Shown here: piece by piece, positions 20,751 to 42,442 of the stretch
Layout of the letters: the number at the start of each line of letters is the position of its first letter
Position numbering within the stretch: the first letter of the stretch is position 1
NCBI GenBank assembly: GCA_030595925.1
Contig: JAUVLC010000005.1
Span: 1 to 42,588, forward strand
Length of the DNA stretch: 42,588 nucleotides
Direction: 5' to 3'
Source of the DNA: Clostridia bacterium
Lineage (GTDB): Bacteria > CBDUZB01 > JAGLHV01
The notes under the pieces: generated by a model
The model's database searches: none
What the model saw: only the letters and a program-made list of their open reading frames with translations
Told to the model about the DNA's origin: nothing
Translations under genes and position numbers: made by a program

Positions 20751-20977
20751 AATGTTAATTATATGTAAAAAAAATATAAGTAAAACAGGATTGAAAAGTA
20801 TTCACATAATTTGTTTAAATATAAGGGTTTTGTCTGAATATAGTTGAAGAATTGCTTATATTTCATCTCTGCTTGTAGGGTTTATCGTTCTTAGGTAGGC
20901 TTTAAAATCCGTACTTTTTGCAAATCAAACAGACCTGGTTGTAACCAATTTGCACTGCTTTTGAAGAACAGACTTTG

Positions 20978-21060
20978 GAATCAGTAATTTGATAGTAGTA
21001 AGTAGACCGTCAGCTTCGCTGACTAGTTGGAGCCAAAACCTTTGCAAACTCAGGTTTTGG
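20978..21060. repeat. Structured intergenic repeat, copy 1
   Basis: The repeat begins GAATCAGTAATTTGATAGTA. It holds a GTCAG/CTGAC hairpin and ends in a CCAAAACCT (21033-21041)/AGGTTTTGG (21052-21060) hairpin. Copy 2 is at 21267-21350 in the same orientation. On the minus strand both copies read PKxExAKxLAPTSQRS-stop, preceded here by an open frame beginning MVNIDKILKNQL, perhaps a gene remnant. I see nothing identifiable between 20760 and 20977 or between 21061 and 21240. Confidence 0.7.
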
Positions 21061-21245: not shown

Positions 21246-21354
21246 CTCCGCCAAAAACTGAGGTTTGAATCAGTAATTTAATAGTAGTAAGTAGACCGTC
21301 AGCTTCGCTGACTAGTTGGGGCCAAAAACTTCGCAAGCTCAGTTTTTGGCGGAG
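21246..21354. repeat. Structured intergenic repeat, copy 2, with 17-bp flanking inverted repeat touching tRNA-Ser
   Basis: The repeat proper (21267-21350) matches copy 1. It ends in a CCAAAAACT/AGTTTTTGG hairpin that keeps pairing despite a base change on each side. A perfect 17-bp inverted repeat CTCCGCCAAAAACTGAG (21246-21262 and 21338-21354) encloses it. The right arm overlaps the 3' end of the tRNA-Ser gene. Confidence 0.7.
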
Positions 21355-28331: not shown

Positions 28332-28702
28332 ATAGCAATATCCAGCCTAGTGTTTATTTTGTAAATTTAGTAATTTCTCTTTCTCAAACAGGAATGATGC
28401 AATTGGGTAAAATTGTTAATCCTATGACAGGGAAAGAGGACAAAAATATTGAGCAGGCGAAAGTAACTATTGGGGTGTTAGAAATGTTGAAGGAAAAAAC
28501 AACAGGAAATTTGACTAAAGAAGAAGAAAAAATGATAGCGGAGGTTGTTTCTAATCTTCAGTTGAATTATGTAGATGAAATAAATAAAGCTACCACTAAA
28601 ATTGAGGAAGAAGAAGAGCAAAAAGATAAAGCCCAGGAACAGAAAAAAGAACAAACGGAAGGGTCTTCTCCTAAGAAAGAAGAGAACCCTGTAGTAGAAT
28701 AA
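28328..28702 (+). CDS. DUF1844 family protein
   Basis: The 124-residue protein has the DUF1844 core SVYFVNLVISLSQTGMMQLG, then KNIEQAKVTIGVLEMLKEKT and GNLTKEEEKMIAEVVSNLQL. A Lys/Glu/Gln-rich disordered tail covers about 90-124. Its function is unknown in all bacteria that carry it. The ATG overlaps the gltX stop (ATGA) and GGAGGA is just upstream, so it is translated with gltX. Confidence 0.88.
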   Translation: MNSNIQPSVYFVNLVISLSQTGMMQLGKIVNPMTGKEDKNIEQAKVTIGVLEMLKEKTTGNLTKEEEKMIAEVVSNLQLNYVDEINKATTKIEEEEEQKDKAQEQKKEQTEGSSPKKEENPVVE

Positions 28703-28719
28703 TAAAAATAAATAGATAA

Positions 28720-28792
28720 TGCCCGGTGATGTAATTGGCAACACACGTGATTCTGGTTCACGCTAGTCCAGGTCCGAGTCCTGGCCGGGCAG
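28720..28792 (+). tRNA. tRNA-Gln(CTG)
   Basis: Acceptor arms TGCCCGG and CCGGGCA pair fully. The anticodon stem CGTGA/TCACG encloses loop TTCTGGT, giving anticodon CTG (codon CAG). The T arm is CCAGG-loop-CCTGG. CCA is not encoded. It begins 17 bases after the DUF1844 stop with no promoter between, so it is probably cotranscribed with gltX. Confidence 0.93.
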
Positions 28793-28832
28793 TTTCTTTT
28801 TAGGGGGGACGAAGTCCCCCCTAAAAAGAAAC
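28792..28832. repeat. Perfect 19-bp hairpin abutting tRNA-Gln
   Basis: Arms 28792-28810 and 28814-28832 (GTTTCTTTTTAGGGGGGAC and its exact complement) enclose a GAA loop. The left arm starts on the tRNA discriminator base. No T-run follows the hairpin, so it is not a standard terminator, but it may define the precursor 3' end. Confidence 0.8.
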
Positions 28833-28858
28833 AGTTTGTCTTCAGGCGAGAGACACGT

Positions 28859-28930
28859 GAGTTTATCCTGAGGAGCCCATTCGGCTTCGCTCTCAGGATA
28901 AACTCAGCGACGAAGGAAGTCCTGGCCGGG
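28859..28930. repeat. 14-bp inverted repeat and duplicated tRNA-Gln 3' end
   Basis: GAGTTTATCCTGAG (28859-28872) pairs with CTCAGGATAAACTC (28892-28905). Next, AGTCCTGGCCGGG (28918-28930) repeats exactly the tRNA-Gln 3' bases 28777-28789. This is the pattern left by an insertion into a tRNA 3' end. Nothing else is seen between 28931 and the promoter at 29022. Confidence 0.65.
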
Positions 28931-29021
28931 AAATATTTTTATCCCCTTCGTCACTAATACACTTTAAATTTTTAAAGTTAACAAGTAAAAATCCCCTTTA
29001 TTATGATTATAAGTTTTTACC

Positions 29022-29050
29022 TTGACACTAAAATAAAATAAAAATATAAT
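29022..29050 (+). promoter_or_regulatory. Consensus sigma70-type promoter upstream of radC and the RM operon
   Basis: Perfect TTGACA (29022-29027) and TATAAT (29045-29050) are separated by 17 bases. The leader to the radC ATG would be about 215 bases; it holds an 8-codon ORF starting near 29060 and no obvious structure. Confidence 0.8.
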
Positions 29051-29272
29051 TAAAAACAATGAGCGACTCTTTGCGTAAAGAATAATAGTAAAAAAAAGAA
29101 AAGAGAAATAAACGGAACTTTATTTAAAAATTCAAAAAAAAAGGCTTTAAAAACACATTTTTCAACGAATTAAAACTTTAAACAATATCCTTTATATTTT
29201 TTTGTTTCTCATGATATATATAAAACAATTTGTAAAAAAATTTGAAATATTAATTTTCTAATAAAATAAACT

Positions 29273-29950
29273 ATGTCAAAAATAAAAGACTTACCAAAAC
29301 ATAAACGGCCCAGAGAAAAACTATCTAAAAAGGGAGCGGAAAACTTAAATAATGCTGAACTTTTGGCAATCCTTATTCGTACCGGTCGGGCAGGCAAGAG
29401 TGCTTTAGACATTGCCAGGGAAACTTTGAAAAAGTATCCTCTATCAAAACTTTTAGCCGTTACTAAAGATGAACTGACCAGTATTAAAGGATTAGAAGAT
29501 ACCAAAGTTATTACTATAAAGGCTGCTTTGGAGCTTGGCAGCCGTGCAGTTGGTTCATTTAATGATTCTCTTCCCACCCTTGATTCCGTGAGAGACACTC
29601 TTGTCCAACTTGTTGATTTGAGAGGTAAGCAAAAAGAATATTTTATGGTGCTATATCTCAATGCTCGGAAACAACTCGTTCATAAAGAAATTATTTCTAT
29701 CGGCACATTAACGGAAACATTAGTGCATCCACGCGAAGTATTTGAACCGGCCATACGCTATTTTACATCCTCAGTCATATTGGCTCACAATCATCCATCA
29801 AAAAATACGGAAGTGTCTGATGAGGATATCAGGCTTACTGAAAAATTGATCCAATCGGGCACTATTCTTGATATTGAAGTGCTTGATCATATAATCATCA
29901 CTGATGATAGTTATATCAGTTTTAAGGAGAAAAGATTACTTTTTAAGTAA
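29273..29950 (+). CDS. radC: RadC family protein (JAB/MPN domain)
   Basis: The 225-residue protein has an N-terminal helix-hairpin-helix part (RPREKLSKKGAENLNNAELL, LTSIKGLEDTKVITIKAALE). The C-terminal MPN/JAB metal site is SVILAHNHPSKNTEVSDEDI. The usual HNHPSG reads HNHPSK, but the two His and later Asp are kept. RadC's original repair role has been withdrawn; its true function is unclear and it is often found on mobile DNA. No strong ribosome site precedes the ATG. hsdM begins 9 bases after its stop, so it heads the restriction operon. Confidence 0.88.
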   Translation: MSKIKDLPKHKRPREKLSKKGAENLNNAELLAILIRTGRAGKSALDIARETLKKYPLSKLLAVTKDELTSIKGLEDTKVITIKAALELGSRAVGSFNDSLPTLDSVRDTLVQLVDLRGKQKEYFMVLYLNARKQLVHKEIISIGTLTETLVHPREVFEPAIRYFTSSVILAHNHPSKNTEVSDEDIRLTEKLIQSGTILDIEVLDHIIITDDSYISFKEKRLLFK

Positions 29951-29959
29951 AATAAAATT

Positions 29960-31429
29960 ATGTCACAATTAAAAAACATTGAAGCAATTGAAAAAAGACT
30001 TTGGATTGCGGCGGATATGCTTCGAGCAAATTCTCATTATGCCAGTAATCAATATTTTATGCCGGTGATGGGTTTGGTTTTCTTGCGACATGCTTATAGT
30101 CGTTATTTGTCGGTAAAAGATGAAATCATTGCCAGTTTACCGATACGCGGGGGCAAAACCCCGGAATTGAAGAAAAAGGATTTCAGTAAAAAATCCGCGA
30201 TTTTTTTACAATCCAAAGCTCAATTTGATTATTTTGTGGGGTTGAAAGACAGTGATGACCGCGCAAAGGCCATTATTGATGCGATGGAATCAATTGAAGG
30301 CGATTATGAAACCCTGCGTGGTGTGTTGCCAAAAAAAGAATACCGCGAGTTGGATAATGAAATATTGGGCCAACTGCTACGGGCGTTAAACCCTGAAGAA
30401 TTAAAGAGGATTACCGGTGATGTATTTGGCCGAATTTATGAATATTTTCTCACTCAGTTTGCTGATCAAAAAGCTCATGACGGCGGAGAGTTTTTTACGC
30501 CGGTTTCGCTGGTATCGCTCATCGCTAATGTTCTTGAGCCAAAAAAAGGCACCGTGCTTGACCCTGCCTGCGGTAGTGGTGGAATGTTTGTCCAAAGTGC
30601 TCGTTTTGTAGAGAATCTTCATCAAAATCCTACCGATAAATTAAATTTTTATGGACTAGAAAAAAATGAAATTACCATTGATCTGGCTAAGATGAACCTG
30701 GCGGTGCATGGCTTGGTGGGTGATATCAAAAAAGCAATAAGCTACTACGAAGACCCGCATAACTTGTATAAAAAAGCCGACTTTGTAATGGCTAATCCAC
30801 CGTTTAATGTGGATGAAATTGATGCGGACAAAATAAAAAACGACCCCCGTTTGCCCTTTGGCTTACCCGGAGTGAATAAGAAAGGCAAAGTCAGTAACGG
30901 CAACTATGTCTGGATTAGTTATTTTTACAGTTACTTAACCGAACAGGGCAGAGCCGGTTTTGTTATGTCGTCACAAGCATCAAGTGCGGGAAATAATGAA
31001 GCAAAAGTACGTAAGAAACTGATTGATACCGGTCATGTGGACATCATGATTGCCATTCGTTCCAACTTTTTTTATACTCGAACTGTACCATGTGAATTGT
31101 GGTTTTTTAATAAAGCAAAATCAAAAGAACATAAAGACAAAGTATTAATGATTGACGTTCGCAACATTTTCCGTAAGGTAACGAGAAAGATTTATGATTT
31201 CAGTCCGGAACAATTGCAAAACATCCTTTCTATCATCTGGCTTTATCGGGGTGAAACCAAGCGTTTTCATGACTTGGTAATGAATTATATTTCTGCCATG
31301 CTCAATGAAACTGTGCAATGTATCACTCCCGTGCACGACTATGAAACCGTTTTTGTTAAATTAAATCAAGAGCTTCAGCCGTTTTTTTGGCTGCAATTCC
31401 TAAAGACGGAAAACAAGCAGAAACATTAA
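29960..31429 (+). CDS. hsdM: Type I restriction-modification methylase subunit HsdM, N-terminal and catalytic part
   Basis: The subunit methylates adenine N6 using SAM. Motif I is VLDPACGSGGMFVQSA near residue 200 and motif IV is ADFVMANPPFNVDE near 278. The N-terminal helical bundle (IEKRLWIAADMLRANSHYAS) is typical. In frame, the protein ends with LQPFFWLQFLKTENKQKH, a non-family tail. The true C-terminus continues in the -1 frame at 31387-32055. The frames meet at a run of seven T (31382-31388); one more T would give QPFFLAAIPKDGK and a protein of about 697 residues. This is either a sequencing error, a disabling mutation or frameshifting on the T-run. Confidence 0.9.
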   Translation: MSQLKNIEAIEKRLWIAADMLRANSHYASNQYFMPVMGLVFLRHAYSRYLSVKDEIIASLPIRGGKTPELKKKDFSKKSAIFLQSKAQFDYFVGLKDSDDRAKAIIDAMESIEGDYETLRGVLPKKEYRELDNEILGQLLRALNPEELKRITGDVFGRIYEYFLTQFADQKAHDGGEFFTPVSLVSLIANVLEPKKGTVLDPACGSGGMFVQSARFVENLHQNPTDKLNFYGLEKNEITIDLAKMNLAVHGLVGDIKKAISYYEDPHNLYKKADFVMANPPFNVDEIDADKIKNDPRLPFGLPGVNKKGKVSNGNYVWISYFYSYLTEQGRAGFVMSSQASSAGNNEAKVRKKLIDTGHVDIMIAIRSNFFYTRTVPCELWFFNKAKSKEHKDKVLMIDVRNIFRKVTRKIYDFSPEQLQNILSIIWLYRGETKRFHDLVMNYISAMLNETVQCITPVHDYETVFVKLNQELQPFFWLQFLKTENKQKH

Positions 31430-32055
31430 AAGAGTTAACTGACTGTTTAAAAGCTTACACGAGCGGAAGCCAGGCATTTGCCAAACTGGCGCAAGAAAAA
31501 AGCACATGGTGGAAAAAGCAAAACAAAGACAATATTGAGACGCAAAATTTTGCGTCTCTACAAAAAGAATTGGAACCGCTTGCCGAGGAAAACAATAAAC
31601 TAATCAAAGAAGCCGAATTGATGTATCGTTTGATTAACCGCTTGATTGATGTGTGCCTCAATACATATAACGCCAAAGAAAGCGATAAGTGGAATACGCG
31701 AGAGATTTCTAACATCAAAAAACAAGTCGAAGAGGCGCGCGACATGGCGGTGAAGCAATTGAAATTCGCTCGCTATTTTCATCATCAAGCCGAATGGCTC
31801 ATGGAACGATTCCCGGGAGAAAAATTGCGCGATGTGGAGGGGTTGGTAAGGCTGGTGGATAAAGCCGAGCTTAAAGAGAACGACTGGAGTCTGACACCGG
31901 GCAGATATGTAGGAGTGGTACCGGAGGAAGAAGACCTGGACTTTGATTTTAAAGAGACCATGAGGACAATTCATGACGAATTGGAAGGTTTGAACGAACA
32001 AGCTGGGAATTTAGCAAAAAAGATTAGTGAGAATTTTAGGAAGTTGGGAATATGA
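31387..32055 (+). CDS. hsdM: HsdM C-terminal part, -1 frame
   Basis: This 222-codon open frame is the missing end of HsdM. It is a helical region followed by NDWSLTPGRYVGVVPEEEDL and an end close to the usual HsdM finish (ELEGLNEQAGNLAKKISENF). It has no ribosome site and its only nearby start is a TTG inside the T-run, so it is unlikely to be a separate gene. hsdS begins on its stop codon (ATGA), as expected if HsdM ends here. That the frame has stayed open for over 220 codons suggests the break is recent, artefactual or bypassed. Confidence 0.85.
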   Translation: MAAIPKDGKQAETLKELTDCLKAYTSGSQAFAKLAQEKSTWWKKQNKDNIETQNFASLQKELEPLAEENNKLIKEAELMYRLINRLIDVCLNTYNAKESDKWNTREISNIKKQVEEARDMAVKQLKFARYFHHQAEWLMERFPGEKLRDVEGLVRLVDKAELKENDWSLTPGRYVGVVPEEEDLDFDFKETMRTIHDELEGLNEQAGNLAKKISENFRKLGI

Positions 32056-33290
32056 AATTAATTAATCGAAAATTAGGTGACGGAATTCATATTAAGCATG
32101 GATTTGCATTTCTTGGGGAGCATTTTTCTGATCAAGGAAAGTACATTCTTTTAACACCTGGAAATTTTTATGAAAAGGGTGGATTTAAATCAAGGCCTGA
32201 AAAAGACCGATACTATATCGGGACGTTTCCTAACGATTATTTATTAAAAAAAGACGATCTCATCATTGCCATGACAGAGCAGGGGCCGGGTTTATTAGGA
32301 AGTTCAGCATTTATCCCGGAGGATAATAAATATCTTCATAATCAAAGACTGGGGCTTGTAGAAGAGATTAAAAAAGATATCTTTGATAAGAAATATCTTT
32401 ATCATCTTTTTAATTCTCGAGGTGTTAGAAGTCATATCTATGGTAGTGCTACTGGAACTAAGGTTCGGCACACCGCCCCTGTCAGAATATATAAAGTTAA
32501 TGTTTTAGTTCCTGATGTAGTAAAACAAAAAGAAATATCATCTATTATAGAGAATTACAGTCAACTCATTGGCACCAATCGTCGGCGAATACAGCTTTTG
32601 GAAGAATCGGCGCGGCTTTTATTTCGCGAGTGGTTTGTGTGTTTCCATTTTCCCGGACATGAAAAAGTTAAGATAGTTGATCGTGGTGGAAGGAAAATGC
32701 CTTCTGAGTGGGAATACATACCATTTACAAAAATAAAATTATTTAAAAAAGCGCCTCTTGGCGTTCAGGTGTTTACTGATATCCGTCAATATTATCAAAC
32801 TTCAGAAATAGATGGCACGAGTATTACCGGGAATGGAGAAGAAGTTGATTATGAAAACAGACCGAGCCGAGCCGACATAGCACCAAGAATTAATACAGTA
32901 TACTTCGCAAAAATGAAGGACACAAATAAGGTTTTGTATTTTAATAAAGGAAATACTTATTTGCTAGAAAAAGTATTGTTATCAACTGGAATGGTTGGAT
33001 TTACCACAGATGAAAAATATTTAGGCTTCTTGTTTGGCCTTTTGACATCTTATGAATTTGTTCAATATAAAAATAATTTTGCAACAGGAGCCACACAAGT
33101 ATCTCTTAATGATGCCAGTTTGAAAAAAATCAAAGTGTTATTGCCTGCGCTGAATTTAGTCGAGTTATATTCTGAGATTGTGAATCCTTTACTTGAAGAA
33201 AGTTCTTTATTAAGAAGCCAAAACCAAAAACTTGCCCAGTCGCGGGATTTACTTTTGCCGCGGCTGATGAGCGGTGCGATTGAGGTATAA
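32052..33290 (+). CDS. hsdS: Type I restriction-modification specificity subunit HsdS
   Basis: The 412-residue protein has two target-recognition halves. The first spans about 1-150 (IHIKHGFAFLGEHFSDQGKY, GSATGTKVRHTAPVRIYKVN). A central conserved helix follows (QKEISSIIENYSQLIGTNRR), ending RLLFREWFVCFHFPGH. The second half (about 220-370) ends in NFATGATQVSLNDASLKKIK and a closing helix with AQSRDLLLPRLMSGAIEV. The two halves set a bipartite DNA target for both methylation and cutting. The ATG overlaps the hsdM stop. The exact target cannot be predicted by eye. Confidence 0.93.
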   Translation: MKLINRKLGDGIHIKHGFAFLGEHFSDQGKYILLTPGNFYEKGGFKSRPEKDRYYIGTFPNDYLLKKDDLIIAMTEQGPGLLGSSAFIPEDNKYLHNQRLGLVEEIKKDIFDKKYLYHLFNSRGVRSHIYGSATGTKVRHTAPVRIYKVNVLVPDVVKQKEISSIIENYSQLIGTNRRRIQLLEESARLLFREWFVCFHFPGHEKVKIVDRGGRKMPSEWEYIPFTKIKLFKKAPLGVQVFTDIRQYYQTSEIDGTSITGNGEEVDYENRPSRADIAPRINTVYFAKMKDTNKVLYFNKGNTYLLEKVLLSTGMVGFTTDEKYLGFLFGLLTSYEFVQYKNNFATGATQVSLNDASLKKIKVLLPALNLVELYSEIVNPLLEESSLLRSQNQKLAQSRDLLLPRLMSGAIEV

Positions 33291-33294
33291 AATT

Positions 33295-34332
33295 ATGAAA
33301 AAGAATAAAGAGATTGCAAAACAAAACACATTTACGGAGTTTCTACTCTACACTACACCAAACGGCAATGTGAAAGTGGAGATATTTCTGCGAGATGAGA
33401 ATTTGTGGCTCACACAAAAGAGAATGGCTGACCTTTTCGGTGTTGGCATACCTGCAGTAAACAAGCACCTCAAAAACATCTTTGAAAGCGGTGAGTTACG
33501 GGAAGATTCAGTTATTTCCATTTTGGAAATAACTGCTGAAGACGGAAAAAAATATTTCACCAAATTTTACAATTTAGATACCATTATTTCCGTTGGCTAC
33601 CGGGTAAATTCAAGGAAGGCGACGCGTTTTCGCATCTGGGCGACTCAAGTTCTCAAAGAATATATCATCAAAGGTTTTGTTATGGATGACAAGCGGCTGA
33701 AAAATCCCGTCAAGATTTTCGGCAAAGATTATTTTGAAGAGCAACTGGCGCGTATCAGGGATATCCGTTCCAGCGAACGCAGATTCTATCAAAAAATTAC
33801 CGATATTTACGCTCAATGCAGCGCTGATTATGAGCCGAATGAGGAAATTACCAAACAATTTTTTGCTGCCGTGCAAAACAAACTTCATTGGGCGATAACA
33901 GGTCAAACCGCAGCTGAAATAATTTACAACAGAGTAAATAGCGGAAAAACAAATATGGGGCTCACGAACTGGAAGAATTCGCCCAAAGGAGCTATTAGAA
34001 AAACCGATGTCAGTATCGCTAAAAATTATCTCGATGAAAAAGAACTTGATGGATTAAACAGAATTATCACCATGTATCTTGATTATGCTGAAATGCAGTC
34101 GCAAAAAGGTGTTGTGATGTATATGAAGAACTGGGTAGAAAAATTAGATGCTTTTTTGCAATTCAACGAAAAAGAAATTTTACAGGATAGCGGTAAGATT
34201 AGTCATGAAATCGCGGAAGAACTTGCTTTAGAAGAGTATGGAAAATATCGGGTAATACAGGATAAAAACTATGTTTCTGATTTTGACCGCGAAGTGAAAA
34301 AATTGCTTAATTCAAAGAAGAAAAAAAGATGA
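33295..34332 (+). CDS. rhuM: RhuM family protein
   Basis: The 345-residue protein has the RhuM (virulence_RhuM) core: LWLTQKRMADLFGVGIPAVN, KHLKNIFESGELREDSVISI, FYNLDTIISVGYRVNSRKAT and WATQVLKEYIIKGFVMDDKR. The N-terminal part resembles phage Bro/KilA-like DNA-binding modules. Its function is unknown, but it is repeatedly found inside type I restriction operons between hsdS and hsdR, as here. I start at ATG 33295, 4 bases after the hsdS stop; GTG at 33274 would overlap hsdS for no gain. Its stop overlaps the hsdR start (ATGA). Confidence 0.9.
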   Translation: MKKNKEIAKQNTFTEFLLYTTPNGNVKVEIFLRDENLWLTQKRMADLFGVGIPAVNKHLKNIFESGELREDSVISILEITAEDGKKYFTKFYNLDTIISVGYRVNSRKATRFRIWATQVLKEYIIKGFVMDDKRLKNPVKIFGKDYFEEQLARIRDIRSSERRFYQKITDIYAQCSADYEPNEEITKQFFAAVQNKLHWAITGQTAAEIIYNRVNSGKTNMGLTNWKNSPKGAIRKTDVSIAKNYLDEKELDGLNRIITMYLDYAEMQSQKGVVMYMKNWVEKLDAFLQFNEKEILQDSGKISHEIAEELALEEYGKYRVIQDKNYVSDFDREVKKLLNSKKKKR

Positions 34333-37300
34333 CTTATTTAAACGAAGATACATTAGTACAACAAACAACTATCGATTATCTGAAAAGTAAACTTGGCTGG
34401 GATTCGGTGTATGCCTATAACCAGGAAACTTTCGGGCCGGATGGTCTATTGGGCAGAAATTCTGATTGCGAAGTAGTGCTGACGCGTCATCTTAAACAAG
34501 CCCTAAAAAAGTTCAATCCCCATCTTCCTGAAATCGCTTACGATGAAGCTGTGCATCAAGTGGTAGATTACTCCCAGAGCCAGTCAATGCTTTCGTCAAA
34601 CTGTGATAAATACAAATTGTTTAAAGACGGTGTGCTGGTTTCTTTTCAGGGAGAACATGGAGAGATCAAAAAAGAGCGGCTTAAGATATTTAATTTTAAT
34701 GAAGCGACCAATAATCACTTTTTGGCAGTGCGCGAATTGTGGGTACAGGGAGATCTCTACCGCCGGCGTATTGATATAGCTGGGTTTGTAAACGGAATTC
34801 CTCTTTTGTTTGTAGAATGCAAAAATATTCATAAGGATCTCAGGAACGCCTATGAAAGAAACTTGGCTGATTACAAAGATACTATTCCTCATTTTTTTCA
34901 TCACAACGCAATCGTCATGCTCGCCAATGGAGCAAAAGCCAAAATAGGCATTATCACCAGTTGCTACGAACATTTTCATGAGTGGAAACGCTTGTCTGAA
35001 AAAGATCCGGGTATGGTGGATATGGAAACTCTTTTGAAGGGTGTTTGCGACAAGAGAAATTTCATGGATATTTTTGAAAACTTCATTACCTATGATGATT
35101 CCAGCGGCAAACAAATAAAAGTGCTGGCAAAAAATCACCAGTATCTGGGTGTCAATCAGGTCATCAAAGCTTTGAATGATCCCAACAGAGTCAAAGGAAA
35201 ACTCGGTGTTTTCTGGCATACGCAAGGAGCGGGCAAAAGTTATTCCATGGTATTTTTTACCACCAAGGTGCATCGTAAAATCGGGGGTAATTATACATTT
35301 TTAATATGCACTGATCGGGATGATCTGGATACGCAAATATACAAAACCTTTGCCGGATGCGGTGTGGCCGATAACGACAGAACACCATGCCGACCGAGTA
35401 GTGGCAAACATTTGGCAGAACTCATGAGTCATCACAAGGCTTATGTCTTTACCACGATTCAAAAATTCAATCAGGAAATAGATCCGGATGAAGGTTATAC
35501 TAAACGCAATGATATTATTGTGATTACCGACGAAGCGCATCGTACTCAATACGGCACTCTTGCTTTGAATATGCGTAATGCTTTACCAAATGCCAACTTT
35601 ATCGGGTTTACGGGGACCCCATTATTTAAAAACGATCAAATCACAATGCAGGTCTTTGGCAATTATGTTTCTACTTATGATTTTCAGCGGGCGGTAGAAG
35701 ATAAAGCGACTGTACCGCTTTATTACGATTCGCGGGGTGATACCTTGGGTGTAGCCACTAATGATATCAATGAGCGTATTGCTGAAAAACTGGAACAAAT
35801 TGAAATTGATGATATTGATGTAAGTCAGAGACTGGAAAGAGAGCTGAAGAGGGACTATCACATTATCACCGCGGAAAAGCGGTTGAACCAAATTGCCAAG
35901 GATTTTGTCGAGCACTACACCACTTCCTGGGAAATCGGCAAGGCGATGTTTGTGTGCATAGATAAATTAACCTGTGTGCGGATGTATGAATTGATCAAAC
36001 AATATTGGGATCAAAAAGCAGAAGAAATAGAAGAATCCTGGAAAATGGCTGTGGGAGAAGAAAAGGATCATTTTTTCAATCAGCTTATCTGGATGAAAGA
36101 GAATAGGATGGCTGTGATTGTGAGTGAAGAGCAAGGAGAGGTCGAGAAATTTAGAAAATGGGGTTTCGATATCACTCCGCACCGGCGACTTATTAAGAAT
36201 GGCTTTGAACTCTCCGATGGAACGCGAATTGATGTGGCTGCTGCTTTTAAAAAAGAGGAACACCCATTTAGAATTGCGATAGTCTGCGCGATGTGGTTAA
36301 CAGGGTTTGATGTGCCGAGTTTGGCAAATCTCTATTTAGACAAACCGCTCAAAGCCCATACGCTGATGCAGGCGATTGCCCGCGCCAACAGAGTAAACGG
36401 CGATAAAAATAACGGTCTTATTATTGATTATTGCGGTATTCTTAAAAATCTACGCAAAGCACTTGCTACTTTTACCGGCACAGACGATACAGGCAGAACA
36501 GGTGGATTGGGACCGGACGAACTGGATCCAACCAGAACCAAAGAAGAATTACTCGAAGACTTAAAACAAGTGATTGGTTTGGCAAGTGATTTTCTTTATA
36601 AGCGAAAAGTGTCGCTTGATGCAATTATCAACACAAGTGGATTTGAGAGAAACAAGATGATTGTATTGGCCAAAGAAGCAGTGAACGAAAATGATGAAAC
36701 CAGAAAGAAGTTTGAGGTAATGTGCCGCGAAGTATTTATTAAATTCAAAGCGTGTTTAACAATTCCCGGAGTAAATGCTTGCCGCAACCAGTATAACGCT
36801 ATAAATATCATTTACAAAAGTCTACAAAAAGACCGCGATCAAGCAGATATTAGCGATATCATTAAACAATTACATGAAGTTATTGATAAGGCGATTATTG
36901 TTATGCCGGACAGAGCCAAAGTGCCTAATAAGCCGTATGATATTAGCAAAATCAACTTTAAACGATTGCGGGAAGAATTTGAAAATGCTAAAACTAAAAA
37001 TACCACTGTGCAAAGCCTTAAAAGCGTAATCGAGAAAAAAATGGAACGGCTCATCCAAAGAAATCCGCTTCGGACAAACTTCCAAGAACATTATGAAAAG
37101 ATAATTGATGAATATAATAAAGAAAAAGATCGCCAAAACATAGAAGCTATCTTTGAGGCGTTATTGAAGTTTATGCAAGAGTTAGACGAGGAAGAAAGCC
37201 GAGCAATGCGCGAGGGGTTGGATGAGGAAACGCTGGCTATTTATGACCTTTTGGTAAAACCAGATTTGAAACCCCAGGAAATCCAAAAGATAAAGAAGAT

Positions 37301-37547
37301 AGCCAAAGAACTGCTAAAAACACTGAAAGGAAAATTGAAGAATCTGTATAAGTGGCAAGAGAAAGAGCCAACAAGAGATGCCGTAAAAGTATTAATACGA
37401 AATTTCTTGTGGGACGAAAAAACAGGATTACCTGTAGATAGTTATATTAAAAGCGATGTAGATAAAAAAACCGAAGCTGTTTTTTATCATGTATATCGGG
37501 CATATCCGACAGTACCGTCGCCATATTATACAAGCGTGGGTAATTGA
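34329..37547 (+). CDS. hsdR: Type I restriction endonuclease/translocase subunit HsdR
   Basis: The 1072-residue motor-nuclease has an N-terminal PD-(D/E)xK-type nuclease (RIDIAGFVNGIPLLFVECKN near residues 145-163). The SF2 helicase follows, with Walker A WHTQGAGKS near 298 and DEAH in VITDEAHRTQYG near 400. FIGFTGTPLF comes next, and motif VI is found in MQAIARANRVNGDKNNGLII. The C-terminal part is helical and contacts HsdM. It translocates and cuts unmodified DNA in complex with HsdM and HsdS. It is intact, so a truly broken HsdM would leave the nuclease without a working partner. Length is normal for the family. Confidence 0.95.
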   Translation: MTYLNEDTLVQQTTIDYLKSKLGWDSVYAYNQETFGPDGLLGRNSDCEVVLTRHLKQALKKFNPHLPEIAYDEAVHQVVDYSQSQSMLSSNCDKYKLFKDGVLVSFQGEHGEIKKERLKIFNFNEATNNHFLAVRELWVQGDLYRRRIDIAGFVNGIPLLFVECKNIHKDLRNAYERNLADYKDTIPHFFHHNAIVMLANGAKAKIGIITSCYEHFHEWKRLSEKDPGMVDMETLLKGVCDKRNFMDIFENFITYDDSSGKQIKVLAKNHQYLGVNQVIKALNDPNRVKGKLGVFWHTQGAGKSYSMVFFTTKVHRKIGGNYTFLICTDRDDLDTQIYKTFAGCGVADNDRTPCRPSSGKHLAELMSHHKAYVFTTIQKFNQEIDPDEGYTKRNDIIVITDEAHRTQYGTLALNMRNALPNANFIGFTGTPLFKNDQITMQVFGNYVSTYDFQRAVEDKATVPLYYDSRGDTLGVATNDINERIAEKLEQIEIDDIDVSQRLERELKRDYHIITAEKRLNQIAKDFVEHYTTSWEIGKAMFVCIDKLTCVRMYELIKQYWDQKAEEIEESWKMAVGEEKDHFFNQLIWMKENRMAVIVSEEQGEVEKFRKWGFDITPHRRLIKNGFELSDGTRIDVAAAFKKEEHPFRIAIVCAMWLTGFDVPSLANLYLDKPLKAHTLMQAIARANRVNGDKNNGLIIDYCGILKNLRKALATFTGTDDTGRTGGLGPDELDPTRTKEELLEDLKQVIGLASDFLYKRKVSLDAIINTSGFERNKMIVLAKEAVNENDETRKKFEVMCREVFIKFKACLTIPGVNACRNQYNAINIIYKSLQKDRDQADISDIIKQLHEVIDKAIIVMPDRAKVPNKPYDISKINFKRLREEFENAKTKNTTVQSLKSVIEKKMERLIQRNPLRTNFQEHYEKIIDEYNKEKDRQNIEAIFEALLKFMQELDEEESRAMREGLDEETLAIYDLLVKPDLKPQEIQKIKKIAKELLKTLKGKLKNLYKWQEKEPTRDAVKVLIRNFLWDEKTGLPVDSYIKSDVDKKTEAVFYHVYRAYPTVPSPYYTSVGN

Positions 37548-37628
37548 TTTGTAAGAAACTTCTCCCTCAGGAGTTGAATAAGTGAGTTTGTTCTGAGGAG
37601 CAGAGCAACGAAGTAAGTACTGTCTTAA

Positions 37629-37688: not shown

Positions 37689-37739
37689 TTGGTTATATTT
37701 TTATTTTTTTGTTTTGTCTTTATTTTTTATTTTTTATTT

Positions 37740-37825
37740 TTTTGTCTGTTATCTGTAATCTATGGACTGTGGACTATGGACTTTAGTTTCTTTTTAATCT
37801 GTGGACTATCGACTGCTGAAGCGGA
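37740..37825. repeat. Heptamer array E, part 1 (reverse orientation)
   Basis: CTATGGACTGTGGACTATGG and further units are the complement of the TCCATAG/TCCACAG/TCGATAG heptamers seen elsewhere. The orientation relative to the flanking plus-strand genes is opposite to arrays A-D. Confidence 0.75.
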
Positions 37826-37863
37826 GCGGAAGTTTCGCCAGTCAGTAAGGCTGGAACGGGGAA

Positions 37864-38027
37864 AATAAAGGCAGAATATGTTTCTCTCTAGACGCATAAT
37901 TTTACCCTTCGGGCACGCAAAAACAAGCTAAAAATGAAAAACTCGCTTTGCTCAAACAGTTCCATTTTTTTAACGCTTGTTTCTGCTAAAATTTGCTATA
38001 TCGTTCGAAACACATTTTACCTTTATT
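37864..38027. repeat. MITE-like element, copy B (164 bp)
   Basis: The left end AATAAAGGCAGAATATGTTT and the right end, read in reverse, AATAAAGGTAAAATGTGTTT are near-perfect inverted repeats. It contains AGACGCATAATTTTACCC and GCTAAAATTTGCTATATCG, as in copy A, but no heptamer insert. Confidence 0.7.
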
Positions 38028-38094
38028 TTTTTGTTTTGAATTTTGGATTTTGAATTTAGAATTTGCCTGTCTCGCTAATCTTTAAAGCGGATTT

Positions 38095-38315
38095 AGGATT
38101 TAGTATTTGTCTTTTATCTGTAATCTATGGATTGTCTTTTAACTGTCTTTTATCTTTTTACTTTGTGCCTGTCTTTGTCTTTGTTTTTTTGTAGTTAACT
38201 AATAACTAATAACTAATAACTTATAACTGTAGTTTCCGTGCCTTGATGCCTTTGTGCCTATCTTTGTCTTTTGTCCGTAATCTATGGACTATCGACTGTG
38301 GACTATGGACTTTTG
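38095..38315. repeat. Heptamer array E, part 2 (reverse orientation)
   Basis: ACTAATA units repeat in a 7-base register near 38198-38220. A reversed GGCATCAAGGCAC patch follows, then CTATGGACTATCGACTGTGG units to about 38311. No gene is supported between hsdR and hipB. Confidence 0.75.
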
Positions 38316-38381
38316 TCTTTATCTTTTTGTGGCTGCACTTTGTATATGTAGTGCAACATTATGAAGAATCGTATAAATTGT

Positions 38382-38523
38382 TATACCCAAAAAGGTATAC
38401 TGTTTTTATTTTTATTTTAAATTATACCCTTTAAGGTGTGAAATTTTACTAAAAGATTTAAAATATAACCGAAAGGGTATATCTTTTTTATTTTTGACTT
38501 GACATTATACCCTTTAAAGTATA
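38382..38523. promoter_or_regulatory. Four phased HipB-type operators
   Basis: Four 18-bp imperfect palindromes of form TATACC-N6-GGTATA occur at 38382-38399, 38423-38440, 38464-38481 and 38506-38523. Half-sites are TATACC/GGTATA, TATACC/GGTGTG, TATAAC/GGTATA and TATACC/AGTATA. Start-to-start spacing is 41, 41 and 42 bases, close to four helical turns. The last lies in the promoter spacer. E. coli hipBA likewise has several spaced operators. Confidence 0.8.
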
Positions 38524-38527
38524 TAAT
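38499..38527 (+). promoter_or_regulatory. Consensus promoter of hipBST
   Basis: Perfect TTGACA (38499-38504) and TATAAT (38522-38527) have a 17-base spacer that is almost exactly the fourth operator. HipB bound there would block RNA polymerase. Transcription would start near 38534. Confidence 0.85.
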
Positions 38528-38592
38528 TATGTACTGAATGCGTAGGGGCGACATTGGTTGTTCGAAAAACTAATAAGCAAAAAGGAAACAAA

Positions 38593-38793
38593 ATGGAAAT
38601 AGGAAAAAAAATAAGCGAATTAAGAAAAATGGCAAAATTGACACAAGTTGAATTTGCTGAAAGGGTGGGGGTTGGATTGCGTTTCATTAGAGATTTAGAA
38701 CAAGGCAAATCTACCGTGAGACTGGATAAAGTAAATCAAGTCCTTGAATTTCTTGGCTATCACCTTGAGGTTATTAGAAATGAAAAAGAATAA
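38593..38793 (+). CDS. hipB: HipB-like antitoxin/repressor (XRE-type HTH)
   Basis: The 66-residue DNA-binding protein is a single XRE helix-turn-helix: IGKKISELRKMAKLTQVEFA followed by ERVGVGLRFIRDLEQGKSTV. The end, VLEFLGYHLEVIRNEKE, is typical of HipB/y4mF-type regulators. I start at ATG 38593, which has AAAGGA 7 bases upstream and matches family length; the longer frame from 38554 has an untypical Lys-rich extension. It probably binds the four TATACC-N6-GGTATA sites upstream and represses the operon with its partners. The next gene overlaps its 3' end by 14 bases. Confidence 0.9.
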   Translation: MEIGKKISELRKMAKLTQVEFAERVGVGLRFIRDLEQGKSTVRLDKVNQVLEFLGYHLEVIRNEKE

Positions 38794-39106
38794 ATTCAGA
38801 AAAGCCATTGTTTTATTCAAAAATGAAAAAGCAGGCATATTAGAAGAAATAGAAAATGGGTATAAATTTACTTATGATAAGGAATTTATCAAAAACAAAA
38901 TATCAATCTCTATTTCCTTGCCGATAAAAAAATGTTCCTATGAAAGCAATAGCTTATTTCCTTTTTTTACCGGTCTTCTGCCGGAAGGATGGTATCTTGA
39001 TATTGTTTGCGCAACCTTAAAAATAGATAAAAAAGATACTTTTGGCCTTCTGCTTGGTACATGTAAAGATACAATGGGTGCTGTTATGATAAAGGAGCTC
39101 GAATAA
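38780..39106 (+). CDS. hipS: HipS-like antitoxin (HipA N-terminal subdomain protein)
   Basis: The 108-residue protein corresponds to the N-terminal subdomain 1 of HipA: GILEEIENGYKFTYDKEFIK, ISISLPIKKC, and LFPFFTGLLPEGWYLDIVCA with KKDTFGLLLGTCKDTMGAVM. In ordinary HipA this is fused to the kinase; here it is a separate ORF. In the E. coli HipBST system the separate HipS is the antitoxin, so the same role is likely here. ATG 38780 overlaps hipB by 14 bases and the kinase gene begins 2 bases after its stop, so the three are tightly coupled. Confidence 0.85.
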   Translation: MKKNKFRKAIVLFKNEKAGILEEIENGYKFTYDKEFIKNKISISISLPIKKCSYESNSLFPFFTGLLPEGWYLDIVCATLKIDKKDTFGLLLGTCKDTMGAVMIKELE

Positions 39107-39108
39107 AA

Positions 39109-40014
39109 GTGAACCGATGTTTTTTTTGTGGTAAAAAAGTTGAAGAAAAAGAAATGCTTCATTATCCATGTTTAAAAAAACTCTTTGGAGTAAACTATTT
39201 ACCAAAAATAGATTTTTCTCTTAGAGAAGTTTCATTAAAAGCTCAAAAAATGGCAGGAAAAATATCAATGTCCGGCGTTCAACCAAAACTTTCAATGAGA
39301 TTGAATCGGAAAAACAGAGAAATGGAAATGGTGGCTGAAGGAGGGGAATATATTCTAAAACCTCAGACTGAAACATTTCCAAACCTCCCTCAAAATGAGA
39401 ATTTATGTATGACTATTGCCTCAAGCGTGGGAATAGCGGTTCTTCCTCATACTCTTATCAGATTAAAAGATGGTAGTTGGTCATATATTGTAAAAAGATT
39501 TGATAGAATTAAAGGTAAAAAGATACATCAAGAGGATCTTTTGCAGGTTCTTGGAAAAGAAGATAAATATAAGGGTTCTTTAGAGGAAATTGGAAAGAAA
39601 TTAAAACAAATTTCGGAATTTCCAGGTCTGGATATACAACTTTTTTTTGAAAGGGCAGTCTTTTTCTTTATTATAGGAAACGGCGATGCACACTTAAAAA
39701 ATTTCTCAATAATTTATGATGAAGCCGGACACGTTCGGCTTTCTTTAGCCTATGATATTGCCTCTTCTAAATTAGTTATGCCTGATGAAGAAGATTTAGC
39801 TCTATCGATGAATGGAAAAAAGAATAAGATTATCGGTAAAGATTTTGATATATTGGCAGATTACTTGAAAATTCCAGCTAAAATAAGTAATAAAAAATTT
39901 TTAGATAAGGAAAACCTTATTAGAAATATTATAAAAGATTCGATATTAGAAGATATCGAAAAGAAGAGATTAATAGATATAGTAAGCGAGAGATTTTCCA
40001 GGTTAAGAAAATAA
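39109..40014 (+). CDS. hipT: HipT-like Ser/Thr kinase toxin
   Basis: The 301-residue kinase of the HipA fold lacks HipA's N-terminal subdomain, which is encoded by the preceding gene. Start is GTG (NRCFFCGKKV). The N-terminal patch CFFC...HYPC could hold zinc. Next comes KISMSGVQPKLSMRL, the Ser-rich loop where HipA/HipT autophosphorylate. GGEYILKPQTETFPNLPQNE is the ATP-site Lys region. IIGNGDAHLKNFSI carries the catalytic Asp and Asn, and LAYDIASS the metal-binding Asp. HipT of E. coli phosphorylates TrpS and HipA phosphorylates GltX; the target here is unknown. It lies between the restriction operon and mnmG. Confidence 0.88.
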   Translation: MNRCFFCGKKVEEKEMLHYPCLKKLFGVNYLPKIDFSLREVSLKAQKMAGKISMSGVQPKLSMRLNRKNREMEMVAEGGEYILKPQTETFPNLPQNENLCMTIASSVGIAVLPHTLIRLKDGSWSYIVKRFDRIKGKKIHQEDLLQVLGKEDKYKGSLEEIGKKLKQISEFPGLDIQLFFERAVFFFIIGNGDAHLKNFSIIYDEAGHVRLSLAYDIASSKLVMPDEEDLALSMNGKKNKIIGKDFDILADYLKIPAKISNKKFLDKENLIRNIIKDSILEDIEKKRLIDIVSERFSRLRK

Positions 40015-40047
40015 TATATCTACATAAAACTTTTAAGGAGAAAAATT

Positions 40048-41934
40048 GTGGCAACACATTATCAGGAATATGATGTAATTGTAATAGGAGCCGGTCATGC
40101 CGGTTGTGAGGCAGCTTTGGCCAGCAGCAGGATAGGTTGTTCTACCCTTATTTTAACTATGAATCTGGATACTATTGGGGCAATGTCTTGTAATCCGGCT
40201 ATTGGTGGTTTAGCCAAAGGGCAATTAGTAAAAGAAATAGATGTGCTGGGTGGAGAAATGGGTAAGGCCATTGATTGGGCGGGAATCCAATTTCGTCGAC
40301 TGAATACCAGCAAGGGTCCTGCCGTACGCTCTTCCCGGGCACAAGCAGACAAACAAAAATATATGTTATATATGAAGAAGGTTTTGGAAAATCAGTCCAA
40401 CCTGGATTTAAAACAGGGAATGGCAGAAAAAATTTTAGTAAAAAATAATACTGTTTGGGGAGTAGAAACAAAAATAGGAGAAAAAATAAAAGGGAAAATG
40501 ATAGTGGTTAGTCCCGGAACATTTCTTAGAGGATTGATTCATATTGGATTTAATCATTTTCCCGGAGGAAGAATGGGAGAAGCCGCTGCCGGCGGGCTTA
40601 CTAACAGTCTTAAAAATATGGGGTTTAAAATAGGAAGATTTAAAACAGGTACCTGTCCTCGTTTAGATAAAAGAAGTATTAATTTTTCTAAATTAAAGAT
40701 TCAATATGGAGATGATCCCCCTTTCCCTTTTTCTTTTTCTACCAAAAGAATAACACAAAAACAGATTCCCTGTTATATGACCTATACTAATCCGCAGGTG
40801 CATCAAATTATTAGAAATTCTTTGGACAGGTCTCCTCTTTATTCGGGAATAATAAAAGCTACAGGAGTAAGATATTGCCCTTCCATTGAAGATAAAATAG
40901 TTAAATTTTATGATAAAGAAAGGCACCAGATTTTTTTGGAACCGGAAGGAATAAATACAATAGAGGTTTATCCTAATGGTTTAGCTACCAGTTTGCCAAT
41001 AGATGTTCAGGTAGAAATTGTGCATGCGATTGAAGGTTTGGAAAAAGCAAAAATACTGCGGCCGGGGTATGGAATTGAGCATGATTATGTTTATCCTACA
41101 CAACTAAAACCGAGTTTGGAAACAAAGGGGGTAGAAAATCTTTTTTTAGCCGGACAAATTAACGGGACTACCGGATATGAAGAAGCAGCAGCACAGGGAC
41201 TTATTGCCGGGATAAATGCTACCCGGAAAATTAAAGGCCGGGAGCCTATTATTATTGACCGTTCACAGGGATATATTGGAGTGCTTATTGATGATTTGGT
41301 TACAAAGGGAACAAATGAACCTTACCGGATGTTTACTTCCCGGGCGGAATATAGACTTGTATTGCGGGAGGATAATGCGGATTTACGCTTAACGGAAATA
41401 GGGCATAAAATTGGATTGGTTAATGGAAGAAAAAATAAAAAAATTTTAAAAAAGAAAGAAGTAATTAATAAGGAATTAGGCCGAATTAGAAAAACCAGGG
41501 TAAGTCCTACGGAAGAAATAAATAAAAAAATAAAGAGCTGGGGAAGTAGTATTATAGAACGGACAGTAAGTGTGGAGGAATTGTTAAAAAGGCCTGAAGT
41601 TTCCTATTACAAATTAATGGAATTGACAAAATATTTTGACAATAAAATTACATCGGAAGTGGCTTTTCAGGTAGAAATAGAGACGAAATATCAGGGTTAT
41701 ATTAAAAGACAACTTAAGGAAATAGAAAAATTTCGTAAAATAGAAGAAATAAAAATTCCTCCCAATTTGGAATTTTCCTCTGTTCCCGGACTTTCCCGGG
41801 AAGTAAAAGAGAAATTATCTGCTTTTAATCCTGTTTCGTTAGGTCAGGCTTCGCGTATTTCAGGAATTACCCCGGCGGCTATATCTATTTTGAGAGTTTA
41901 TTTGAAGAGCAGGAAAATGAAAAGAAAACCTTGA
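40048..41934 (+). CDS. mnmG: tRNA uridine-5-carboxymethylaminomethyl synthesis protein MnmG (GidA)
   Basis: With MnmE this FAD enzyme modifies U34 of tRNAs reading two-codon families, including Gln, Glu, Lys and Arg. The 628-residue product has the FAD site VIVIGAGHAGCEAALASSRI, SCNPAIGGLAKGQLVKEIDV, and LNTSKGPAVRSSRAQADKQK. GTNEPYRMFTSRAEYRLVLR with EDNADLRLTEIG, and the C-terminal helical domain ending near SRISGITPAAISILRVYLKS, complete the family plan. Start GTG 40048 has AAGGAG 7 bases upstream. MnmE is not in the window. mnmG often lies near oriC, but no dnaA or parAB is here. The next gene is convergent, 44 bases away, with no clear terminator. Confidence 0.96.
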   Translation: MATHYQEYDVIVIGAGHAGCEAALASSRIGCSTLILTMNLDTIGAMSCNPAIGGLAKGQLVKEIDVLGGEMGKAIDWAGIQFRRLNTSKGPAVRSSRAQADKQKYMLYMKKVLENQSNLDLKQGMAEKILVKNNTVWGVETKIGEKIKGKMIVVSPGTFLRGLIHIGFNHFPGGRMGEAAAGGLTNSLKNMGFKIGRFKTGTCPRLDKRSINFSKLKIQYGDDPPFPFSFSTKRITQKQIPCYMTYTNPQVHQIIRNSLDRSPLYSGIIKATGVRYCPSIEDKIVKFYDKERHQIFLEPEGINTIEVYPNGLATSLPIDVQVEIVHAIEGLEKAKILRPGYGIEHDYVYPTQLKPSLETKGVENLFLAGQINGTTGYEEAAAQGLIAGINATRKIKGREPIIIDRSQGYIGVLIDDLVTKGTNEPYRMFTSRAEYRLVLREDNADLRLTEIGHKIGLVNGRKNKKILKKKEVINKELGRIRKTRVSPTEEINKKIKSWGSSIIERTVSVEELLKRPEVSYYKLMELTKYFDNKITSEVAFQVEIETKYQGYIKRQLKEIEKFRKIEEIKIPPNLEFSSVPGLSREVKEKLSAFNPVSLGQASRISGITPAAISILRVYLKSRKMKRKP

Positions 41935-41978
41935 CAGGTAATAATAAAAAACAAAATAAATAAAAAAATGGAAAATAG

Positions 41979-42368
41979 TTATATTAGTATTTGAGAGAGT
42001 TCTTTTAAAATGAATTGAATATCAAAAGGCTTGGAATAGAAATTTATTACACCATTGGATTTGAGCTGGTCGATAGCGTTAGGGGTCATTGCTTTTCCCG
42101 AAACAACAATAATAGGGAAGGGTTTATCTTTTTCAATAGAATTAAATCTTTGAATAAAATCTTCTCCTTTTTCCCATGGTAGGATAAGGTCCATTATTAA
42201 TAAATCCGGAGGGGAAGAAAGAACATAGCTTAGAAGTCCCTCACAATTCGGAAAAGTTTCTACCGTGTATCCTTCCATAGTTAATATATCTTGAAATATT
42301 TCCCTAATTTTCGCTTCGTCGTCAACAACGAAAATCTTTTTTTTCGAATTTTCTTGCATAGCATTCAT
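41979..42368 (-). CDS. Response-regulator receiver protein
   Basis: The 129-residue single receiver domain has KIFVVDDEAKIREIFQDILT, phospho-acceptor Asp60 in DLLIMDLILPWEKGEDF, IIVVSGKAM and FYSKPFD. No output domain is attached. I start at ATG 42368, where AGGAGAA lies 7-8 bases upstream; the open frame from 42422 adds 18 untypical residues. A promoter lies at 42443-42472. The partner kinase is not obvious; it is distant from the chemosensory block. The 116 bases after the promoter to the window end hold nothing I can identify. Confidence 0.88.
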   Translation of the reverse strand: MNAMQENSKKKIFVVDDEAKIREIFQDILTMEGYTVETFPNCEGLLSYVLSSPPDLLIMDLILPWEKGEDFIQRFNSIEKDKPFPIIVVSGKAMTPNAIDQLKSNGVINFYSKPFDIQFILKELSQILI

Positions 42369-42442
42369 TGTTTTTTCTCCTGAGGACATACAAACAGCAC
42401 ATTTTATTAAGAGTTTATTCAATGTTTCCCAAAACCACTTAT

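Follow-up and report, generated by a model that had tools for sequence, protein, structure and literature searches.

Results

A tRNA-Gln gene with a second copy of its 3' end

We analyzed a stretch of DNA of 42,588 bases (the window), which is one contig of a 2.6-Mb draft genome in 193 contigs, and compared it with two genomes of the same phylum, G001 and G002, both of the same genus. A gene for tRNA-Gln (CTG) lies at 28720..28792 on the plus strand. It was intact by ARAGORN and scored 46.2 bits against the Rfam tRNA model in a permissive search; a fast whole-window Rfam scan had missed the gene. This score is 16 bits lower than that of the G001 ortholog (62.4 bits), and the T-loop of the window gene reads TCC instead of TTC.

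An earlier reading made from the sequence alone had reported that a 13-mer from the 3' end of this tRNA, AGTCCTGGCCGGG, is repeated exactly downstream, and our analysis confirmed it. The proximal copy (28777..28789, plus strand) lies inside the gene and covers the 3' strand of the T-arm and the acceptor; the distal copy of the tRNA-Gln 3' end occupies 28918..28930 on the same strand. With up to two mismatches allowed, the 13-mer was found in the window at these two positions only, compared with a mean of 0.18 matches in shuffled windows and at least two matches in 3 of 100 shuffles. The further copy beyond 37.5 kb that the sequence-only reading had suggested looking for did not turn up in the window at the same tolerance; the rest of the genome was compared by BLAST with the 261-bp region, not with the 13-mer itself. 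When 36 tRNAs of the same genome were surveyed, over up to 400 nt of downstream flank as far as contig sequence reached, tRNA-Gln was the only one with a downstream self-copy of at least 12 nt, and tRNA-Asn was found to have a 13-nt copy of its own 5' end upstream.

A separate repeat is seen at the tRNA-Ser(GCT) gene of the window, where a 97-nt sequence that starts at the tRNA 3' end recurs 289 nt on (21253-21349 and 20964-21060, 89% alike). Between its copies lies a 42-aa frame that looked similar to a four-helix-bundle rRNA-intervening-sequence protein, but a Pfam search with this frame gave no match.

A perfect hairpin on the discriminator base

The tRNA-Gln gene runs into a perfect 19-bp hairpin with a 3-nt loop (28792..28832; arms 28792-28810 and 28814-28832), which starts on the discriminator base exactly as claimed from the sequence alone. 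Its stem is the longest perfect one in the window for loops of 3-8 nt, and 20 dinucleotide shuffles gave a maximum of 13 bp. We considered a Rho-independent terminator and rejected it: the 5' arm is rich in T and the 3' arm in A, which is the wrong polarity, so that neither strand has a run of T behind the stem. In G001 each arm is two bases longer, T7/A7 compared with T5/A5 in the window, and both arms have therefore changed together.

Palindromes with 3-nt loops were also found after tRNA-Asn, tRNA-Ser(GGA) and tRNA-Ser(TGA), each made from the gene's own 3' end or trailer. Downstream of each of the two tRNA-Ser genes (loci L119 and L132, contigs C29 and C118 of the same genome) come perfect palindromes built from the gene's own 3' end, together with tandem units that have an inverted tRNA end at their start; of these palindromes, the first is gene-specific.

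A recurring repeat unit between the 13-mers

Immediately downstream of the hairpin begins copy A of a repeat unit (AGTTTGTCTTCAGGCGAGAGACACGTGAGTTTATCCTGAGGAGC..GCGACGAAGGA, 28833..28917, plus strand), and the distal 13-mer forms the end of this copy. Inside copy A lies a REP-like sequence of another family (CCATTCGRCTTCGCTCAGGATAAACTCAGCGAC, 28872..28911, plus strand), with further copies on contigs C91 and C115 and at C94:15008. This piece supplies one arm of a second inverted repeat (28858-28872 and 28892-28906), previously given as 14 bp; it is present, and its length is 15 bp. Further downstream, a promoter-like stretch recognized by eye (TTGACA..TATAAT, 29014..29055, plus strand) is 93% identical over 42 nt to contig C175, downstream of the tRNA-Asn unit there.

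A second copy in the window (copy B, TTCTCCCTCAGGAGTTGAATAAGTGAG.., 37560..37628, plus strand) is 88% identical to the G001 copy that directly follows the hairpin. Besides copies A and B, we found two units in tandem in G001 and, in the same genome as the window, one each at C59:755 and C59:11081, the 3' part of one at C140:2634 and a partial one on C175; read by eye from these copies, the unit consensus is TATTTGTTTCAGGCGAGAGACAAGTGAGYTTGTCCTGAGGAGCGAAGCGACGAAGGAAGTCCT. The partial copy on C175 follows tRNA-Asn, and the related copy at C59:755 follows a repeat that resembles a tRNA tail. Elsewhere the units end in AGTCCTACCCGG, AGTTCTACCTGG, AGTGCTGTTTGGG and AGTCCTGTTTTAAG, two of which, AGTCCTACCCGG and AGTTCTACCTGG, are similar to the 13-mer and have no intact tRNA next to them; the end ACCCGG at C59:755 resembles the tail just upstream of it (CCCGGGGAG).

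Two unit copies are followed by a GIY-YIG gene, which starts within about 20 nt (C59:11106) or about 60 nt (C140:2634) of the unit core motif, and in both cases the unit upstream of the gene already ends in a tRNA-like stretch. On C175 (locus L101), the intact tRNA-Asn is preceded by a GIY-YIG gene that is enclosed by two truncated tRNA-Asn 5' ends, each of which is broken in the D-arm by a palindrome.

A search of 386 genomes detected the unit core (CCTGAGGAG..CGACGAAGG) in 8, including two genomes of the same genus. At the 15 core-motif loci outside the genus, tblastn with three usable queries gave no GIY-YIG neighbor (0/15), and the lone tRNA among these loci lies some 600 bases off. We therefore set the core motif outside the genus aside as a REP-like repeat rather than a GIY-YIG-linked unit. 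An exact-pattern search of public genome contigs for a wider spread of the full unit returned one match, apparently the G001 contig itself, and across the genome set and this search the full unit was found in this genus only.

A restriction island between two 7-bp repeats

A segment of about 8.7 kb (28833-37552), which holds copy A, a RadC gene and type I restriction genes, separates the hairpin from copy B and is flanked on each side by the 7-bp direct repeat AAGAAAC (left, 28826..28832; right, 37553..37559; both on the plus strand). Its genes, all on the plus strand, encode a RadC-like JAB protein (29273..29950), the type I methyltransferase HsdM (29960..32055), the type I specificity subunit HsdS (32052..33290), a RhuM-family protein (33274..34332) and the type I restriction subunit HsdR (34329..37547). 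The hsdM gene is in two overlapping frames, 29960-31429 and 31387-32055, which match consecutive parts of one methylase model. No integrase or recombinase was found among the six plus-strand open reading frames searched in the island. The scar lies at the edge of an accessory region, and the sequence-only reading is borne out on this point.

The G001 contig aligned collinearly with the window by BLAST at 28664-28876, 37553-37628, 38355-38853 and 40025-42380. In G001 the tRNA-Gln gene, the hairpin and a unit copy are contiguous, and the hairpin runs directly into the counterpart of copy B. In the G001 contig we found no counterpart of the RadC, methylase, specificity, RhuM or restriction protein; RadC, the one that was also looked for elsewhere in G001 and G002, has a distant homologue there (31-33% identity). 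When the window flanks were joined at AAGAAAC, they formed one continuous alignment with G001, identical at 213 of 249 positions. The G001 site is thus without copy A and the island, yet carries copy B at the same spot, and its distal tRNA copy agrees with the window 13-mer at 7 of 13 nt, only AGTCCTG being common. Beyond these junctions, an intergenic repeat block at 37700-38320 gave, with a 921-bp query, 133 matches in the same genome, 71 in G002 and 58 in G001, several of them at contig ends, and most of the sequence of the HipA-like genes (two frames, 38744-40014) is missing from the G001 contig, whose alignment with the window breaks off at 38853 and resumes at 40025.

This layering, from the hairpin through copy A and the island to copy B, is read directly from the alignments. 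Since the hairpin is common to the window and G001, its presence beside tRNA-Gln does not depend on the island. The site is a composite: because tRNA-Gln, hairpin and unit copy are contiguous in G001, what had been read as one 141-bp element is two or three layered events. This two-genome comparison is compatible both with an insertion in the lineage of the window and with a deletion in G001.

These results revise the sequence-only reading, which had placed a small element, hairpin included, between the 13-mers. The sequence after the hairpin is indeed a copy of a recurring unit, but the hairpin does not belong to the newcomer, since G001 has it contiguous with tRNA-Gln and a unit copy on a contig that lacks the RadC and restriction genes. 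That reading had also named, as an observation that would speak against it, the same arrangement in distant relatives without the accessory genes; apart from the shorter distal match, G001 largely has this arrangement, as a member of the same genus and not as a distant relative.

Short GIY-YIG genes and tRNA genes in other genomes

Because unit copies and the tRNA-Asn locus are tied to GIY-YIG genes, we surveyed the positions of short GIY-YIG genes elsewhere. A search of 116 genomes provided 29 automatically returned loci and 40 chosen by the length of the open frame; 68 of these 69 have an open reading frame of at most 160 aa and form the short set. A tRNA gene lies within 300 nt of 23 of the 68 short genes, and the nearest tRNA is on the same strand in all 23 (on the 5' side in 13, on the 3' side in 6, overlapping the frame in 4). 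The remaining 45 have no tRNA within 300 nt. A genome of 2.5 Mb typically holds about 45 tRNAs, at which density about 2% of genes would be expected near one. None of 20 UvrC control loci had a tRNA within 300 nt; flanks of 300 nt or more were present on each side at 18 of these loci. In a further sample, from the phylum of G055, 5 of 9 short frames lie directly 3' of a tRNA, compared with 0 of 10 long-frame loci; these controls cover the 5' flank only, the side on which all five tRNAs of this sample lie.

At 11 of the 24 loci with a tRNA within 400 nt, an exact copy of 17-62 nt of part of that tRNA lies across the open reading frame; 7 of these copies are 5' pieces that precede the intact gene, and 4 are 3' pieces that follow it. 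The other 13 loci have no copy of at least 12 nt. Entry into a tRNA with rebuilding of the gene, as had been proposed for the window, is therefore a realistic mode. Outside the 11 loci counted, copies were seen by eye at L170 and at L239, where the sequence is like the end of a tmRNA gene, and L177 has, by eye, an rRNA-like gene. At 25 of 68 loci, the two sides of the frame share a direct repeat of 14 nt or more, REP sequences included, as against 0.7% of mismatched pairs and 0 of 20 UvrC loci. Inverted repeats of at least 14 nt around the genes (10/68 compared with 1/20 UvrC loci) gave a weaker association than that with tRNAs. Away from tRNAs, several short GIY-YIG genes (L174, L178, L184, L186, L069 and others) are flanked by REP-like repeats such as GTCATTCCCGCGAAAG.. 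or GTCATTGCGAG.., which are arranged either as direct or as inverted pairs.

At eight GIY-YIG loci, 305-344 nt separate the tRNA from the start of the distal copy; at L263, the match is located past the end of the tRNA. At L162 (CGAATCC) and L287 (GAATCTC), the leftover piece begins at nearly the same point of the tRNA as in the window, no more than two bases away. We had counted L237 as starting at AGTCC like the window and withdrew it, as the exact match only resumes there after one mismatch and the copy reaches further upstream. At L280, L287 and L276 the trailer hairpin appears by eye to be repeated too. Palindromes with arms of at least 6 nt stand just before the distal copy at 5 of the 8 loci, compared with 13% of random 45-mers, and the window has an arm of 5; as a feature of the elements, these palindromes are suggestive only.

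Discussion

Taking the locus and the survey together, we infer that copy A is an ORF-less remnant of a single-gene element of GIY-YIG type at tRNA-Gln, a reading to which we give slightly less than an even chance. The cut made by such an element would fall within a conserved part of the tRNA gene, which in the window is the position immediately past the T-loop; afterwards the element would be flanked by the intact tRNA and, at its opposite end, by a leftover 3' or 5' fragment. In the window the nuclease gene would have been lost or never carried, leaving the palindromic unit and the 13-mer. The architecture is that of the GIY-YIG loci: an intact tRNA, a trailer, a palindromic stretch and a 3' piece of the same tRNA from the T-loop end, here of 13 nt compared with the 17-62 nt of the 11 loci. 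Using tblastn, we found no GIY-YIG gene between the tRNA copies and no remnant of one in the window (best E 0.12). The distance from the tRNA to the distal copy is only 125 nt, compared with 305-344 nt at the eight loci above, so that a GIY-YIG gene cannot fit. Also weighing against the relic reading are the unit ends that look like the 13-mer away from any intact tRNA, the units at C59:11106 and C140, which come before the gene and have the tRNA-like stretch already, the lack of GIY-YIG neighbors at the 15 core-motif loci outside the genus, and the many short GIY-YIG loci with no tRNA nearby or no tRNA copy.

The 13-mer itself can be accounted for in another way. It might be the unit's own 3' end and not a target duplication, an old captured piece of T-arm and acceptor (AGTCCTxxCCGG) carried to any site, with the match to tRNA-Gln partly inherited and partly due to chance. 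The range of unit ends found elsewhere is consistent with this, as is the G001 site, which at the same tRNA shares only AGTCCTG; the exact 13-nt match to the adjacent tRNA-Gln and the end at C59:755, which follows the tail just upstream instead of a fixed sequence, argue against it, and we consider it a serious candidate that is on balance unlikely. An origin through replication template switching, in which the tRNA trailer would have been copied by fold-back to give the hairpin and slippage would have produced the 13-mer, would dispense with a mobile element here altogether. It would suit the perfect palindromes with 3-nt loops that tRNA-Gln, tRNA-Asn and two tRNA-Ser genes have formed from their own trailers, and also the joint lengthening of both hairpin arms in G001, but it leaves the repeat unit between the 13-mers and its recurrence elsewhere unaccounted for, which makes it improbable to us.

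The repetition of a tRNA 3' end near an accessory island is also what islands integrated by a tyrosine recombinase leave behind as att repeats, and the window adds a direct repeat and adjoining defence-type cargo to this likeness. The differences weigh far more: the six island frames include no recombinase, the right end has no 13-mer, and the left boundary falls after the hairpin, outside the tRNA, so that the junctions contradict a classical island. We rejected this candidate because of the missing recombinase and the missing copy at the far end, and rate its chances as very slight.

Two other known systems resemble parts of the GIY-YIG reading. Like REP and MITE sequences, the unit is short and dispersed in several copies, has a palindromic core and contains no open reading frame; unlike them, the full unit was found in this genus only and lies beside tRNA genes and directly upstream of GIY-YIG genes. 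Candidate mobilizing partners are the GIY-YIG genes that follow two unit copies and a RAYT-like frame on contig C42, recognized by eye only. The other system is that of free-standing (intronless) homing endonuclease genes such as the GIY-YIG Seg genes of phage T4, which are small single nuclease genes proposed to spread themselves by cutting a conserved target (PMC1564403). The 23 of 68 sampled short genes within 300 nt of a tRNA gene are in keeping with such behavior. Here, by contrast, the target tRNA stays or becomes intact with a leftover piece across the gene, and the window copy has no gene; this arrangement is not mentioned in the passages of PMC1564403 consulted.

More generally, and tentatively enough that we would sooner doubt than assert it, putative mobile elements, about 330 bp long and with a GIY-YIG gene as their sole gene, may, in many bacterial lineages, enter tRNA genes (in the D-arm, anticodon loop or T-arm) and, judged by eye, tmRNA-like and rRNA-like genes, leaving an intact RNA gene and a piece of it. 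Palindromic derivatives without a gene, such as copy A, would be their MITEs and would seed landing sites for defence islands. A general class of tRNA-associated GIY-YIG elements looks new: among the matches listed in a search of the open-licence PMC literature, a collection to which subscription journals and preprints are largely external, we found no paper on tRNA-rebuilding GIY-YIG elements in bacteria.

For the locus itself, these findings correct the account of the island edge, as the scar is not the usual attachment site and the hairpin lies outside the newcomer. If the wider proposal is true, highly conserved genes would be landing sites for near-minimal selfish elements of one gene of about 75-115 codons, which would avoid harm by leaving the tRNA intact. 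It would also suggest an origin for some palindromic repeats and offer a simple test system for the spread of GIY-YIG nucleases free of introns.
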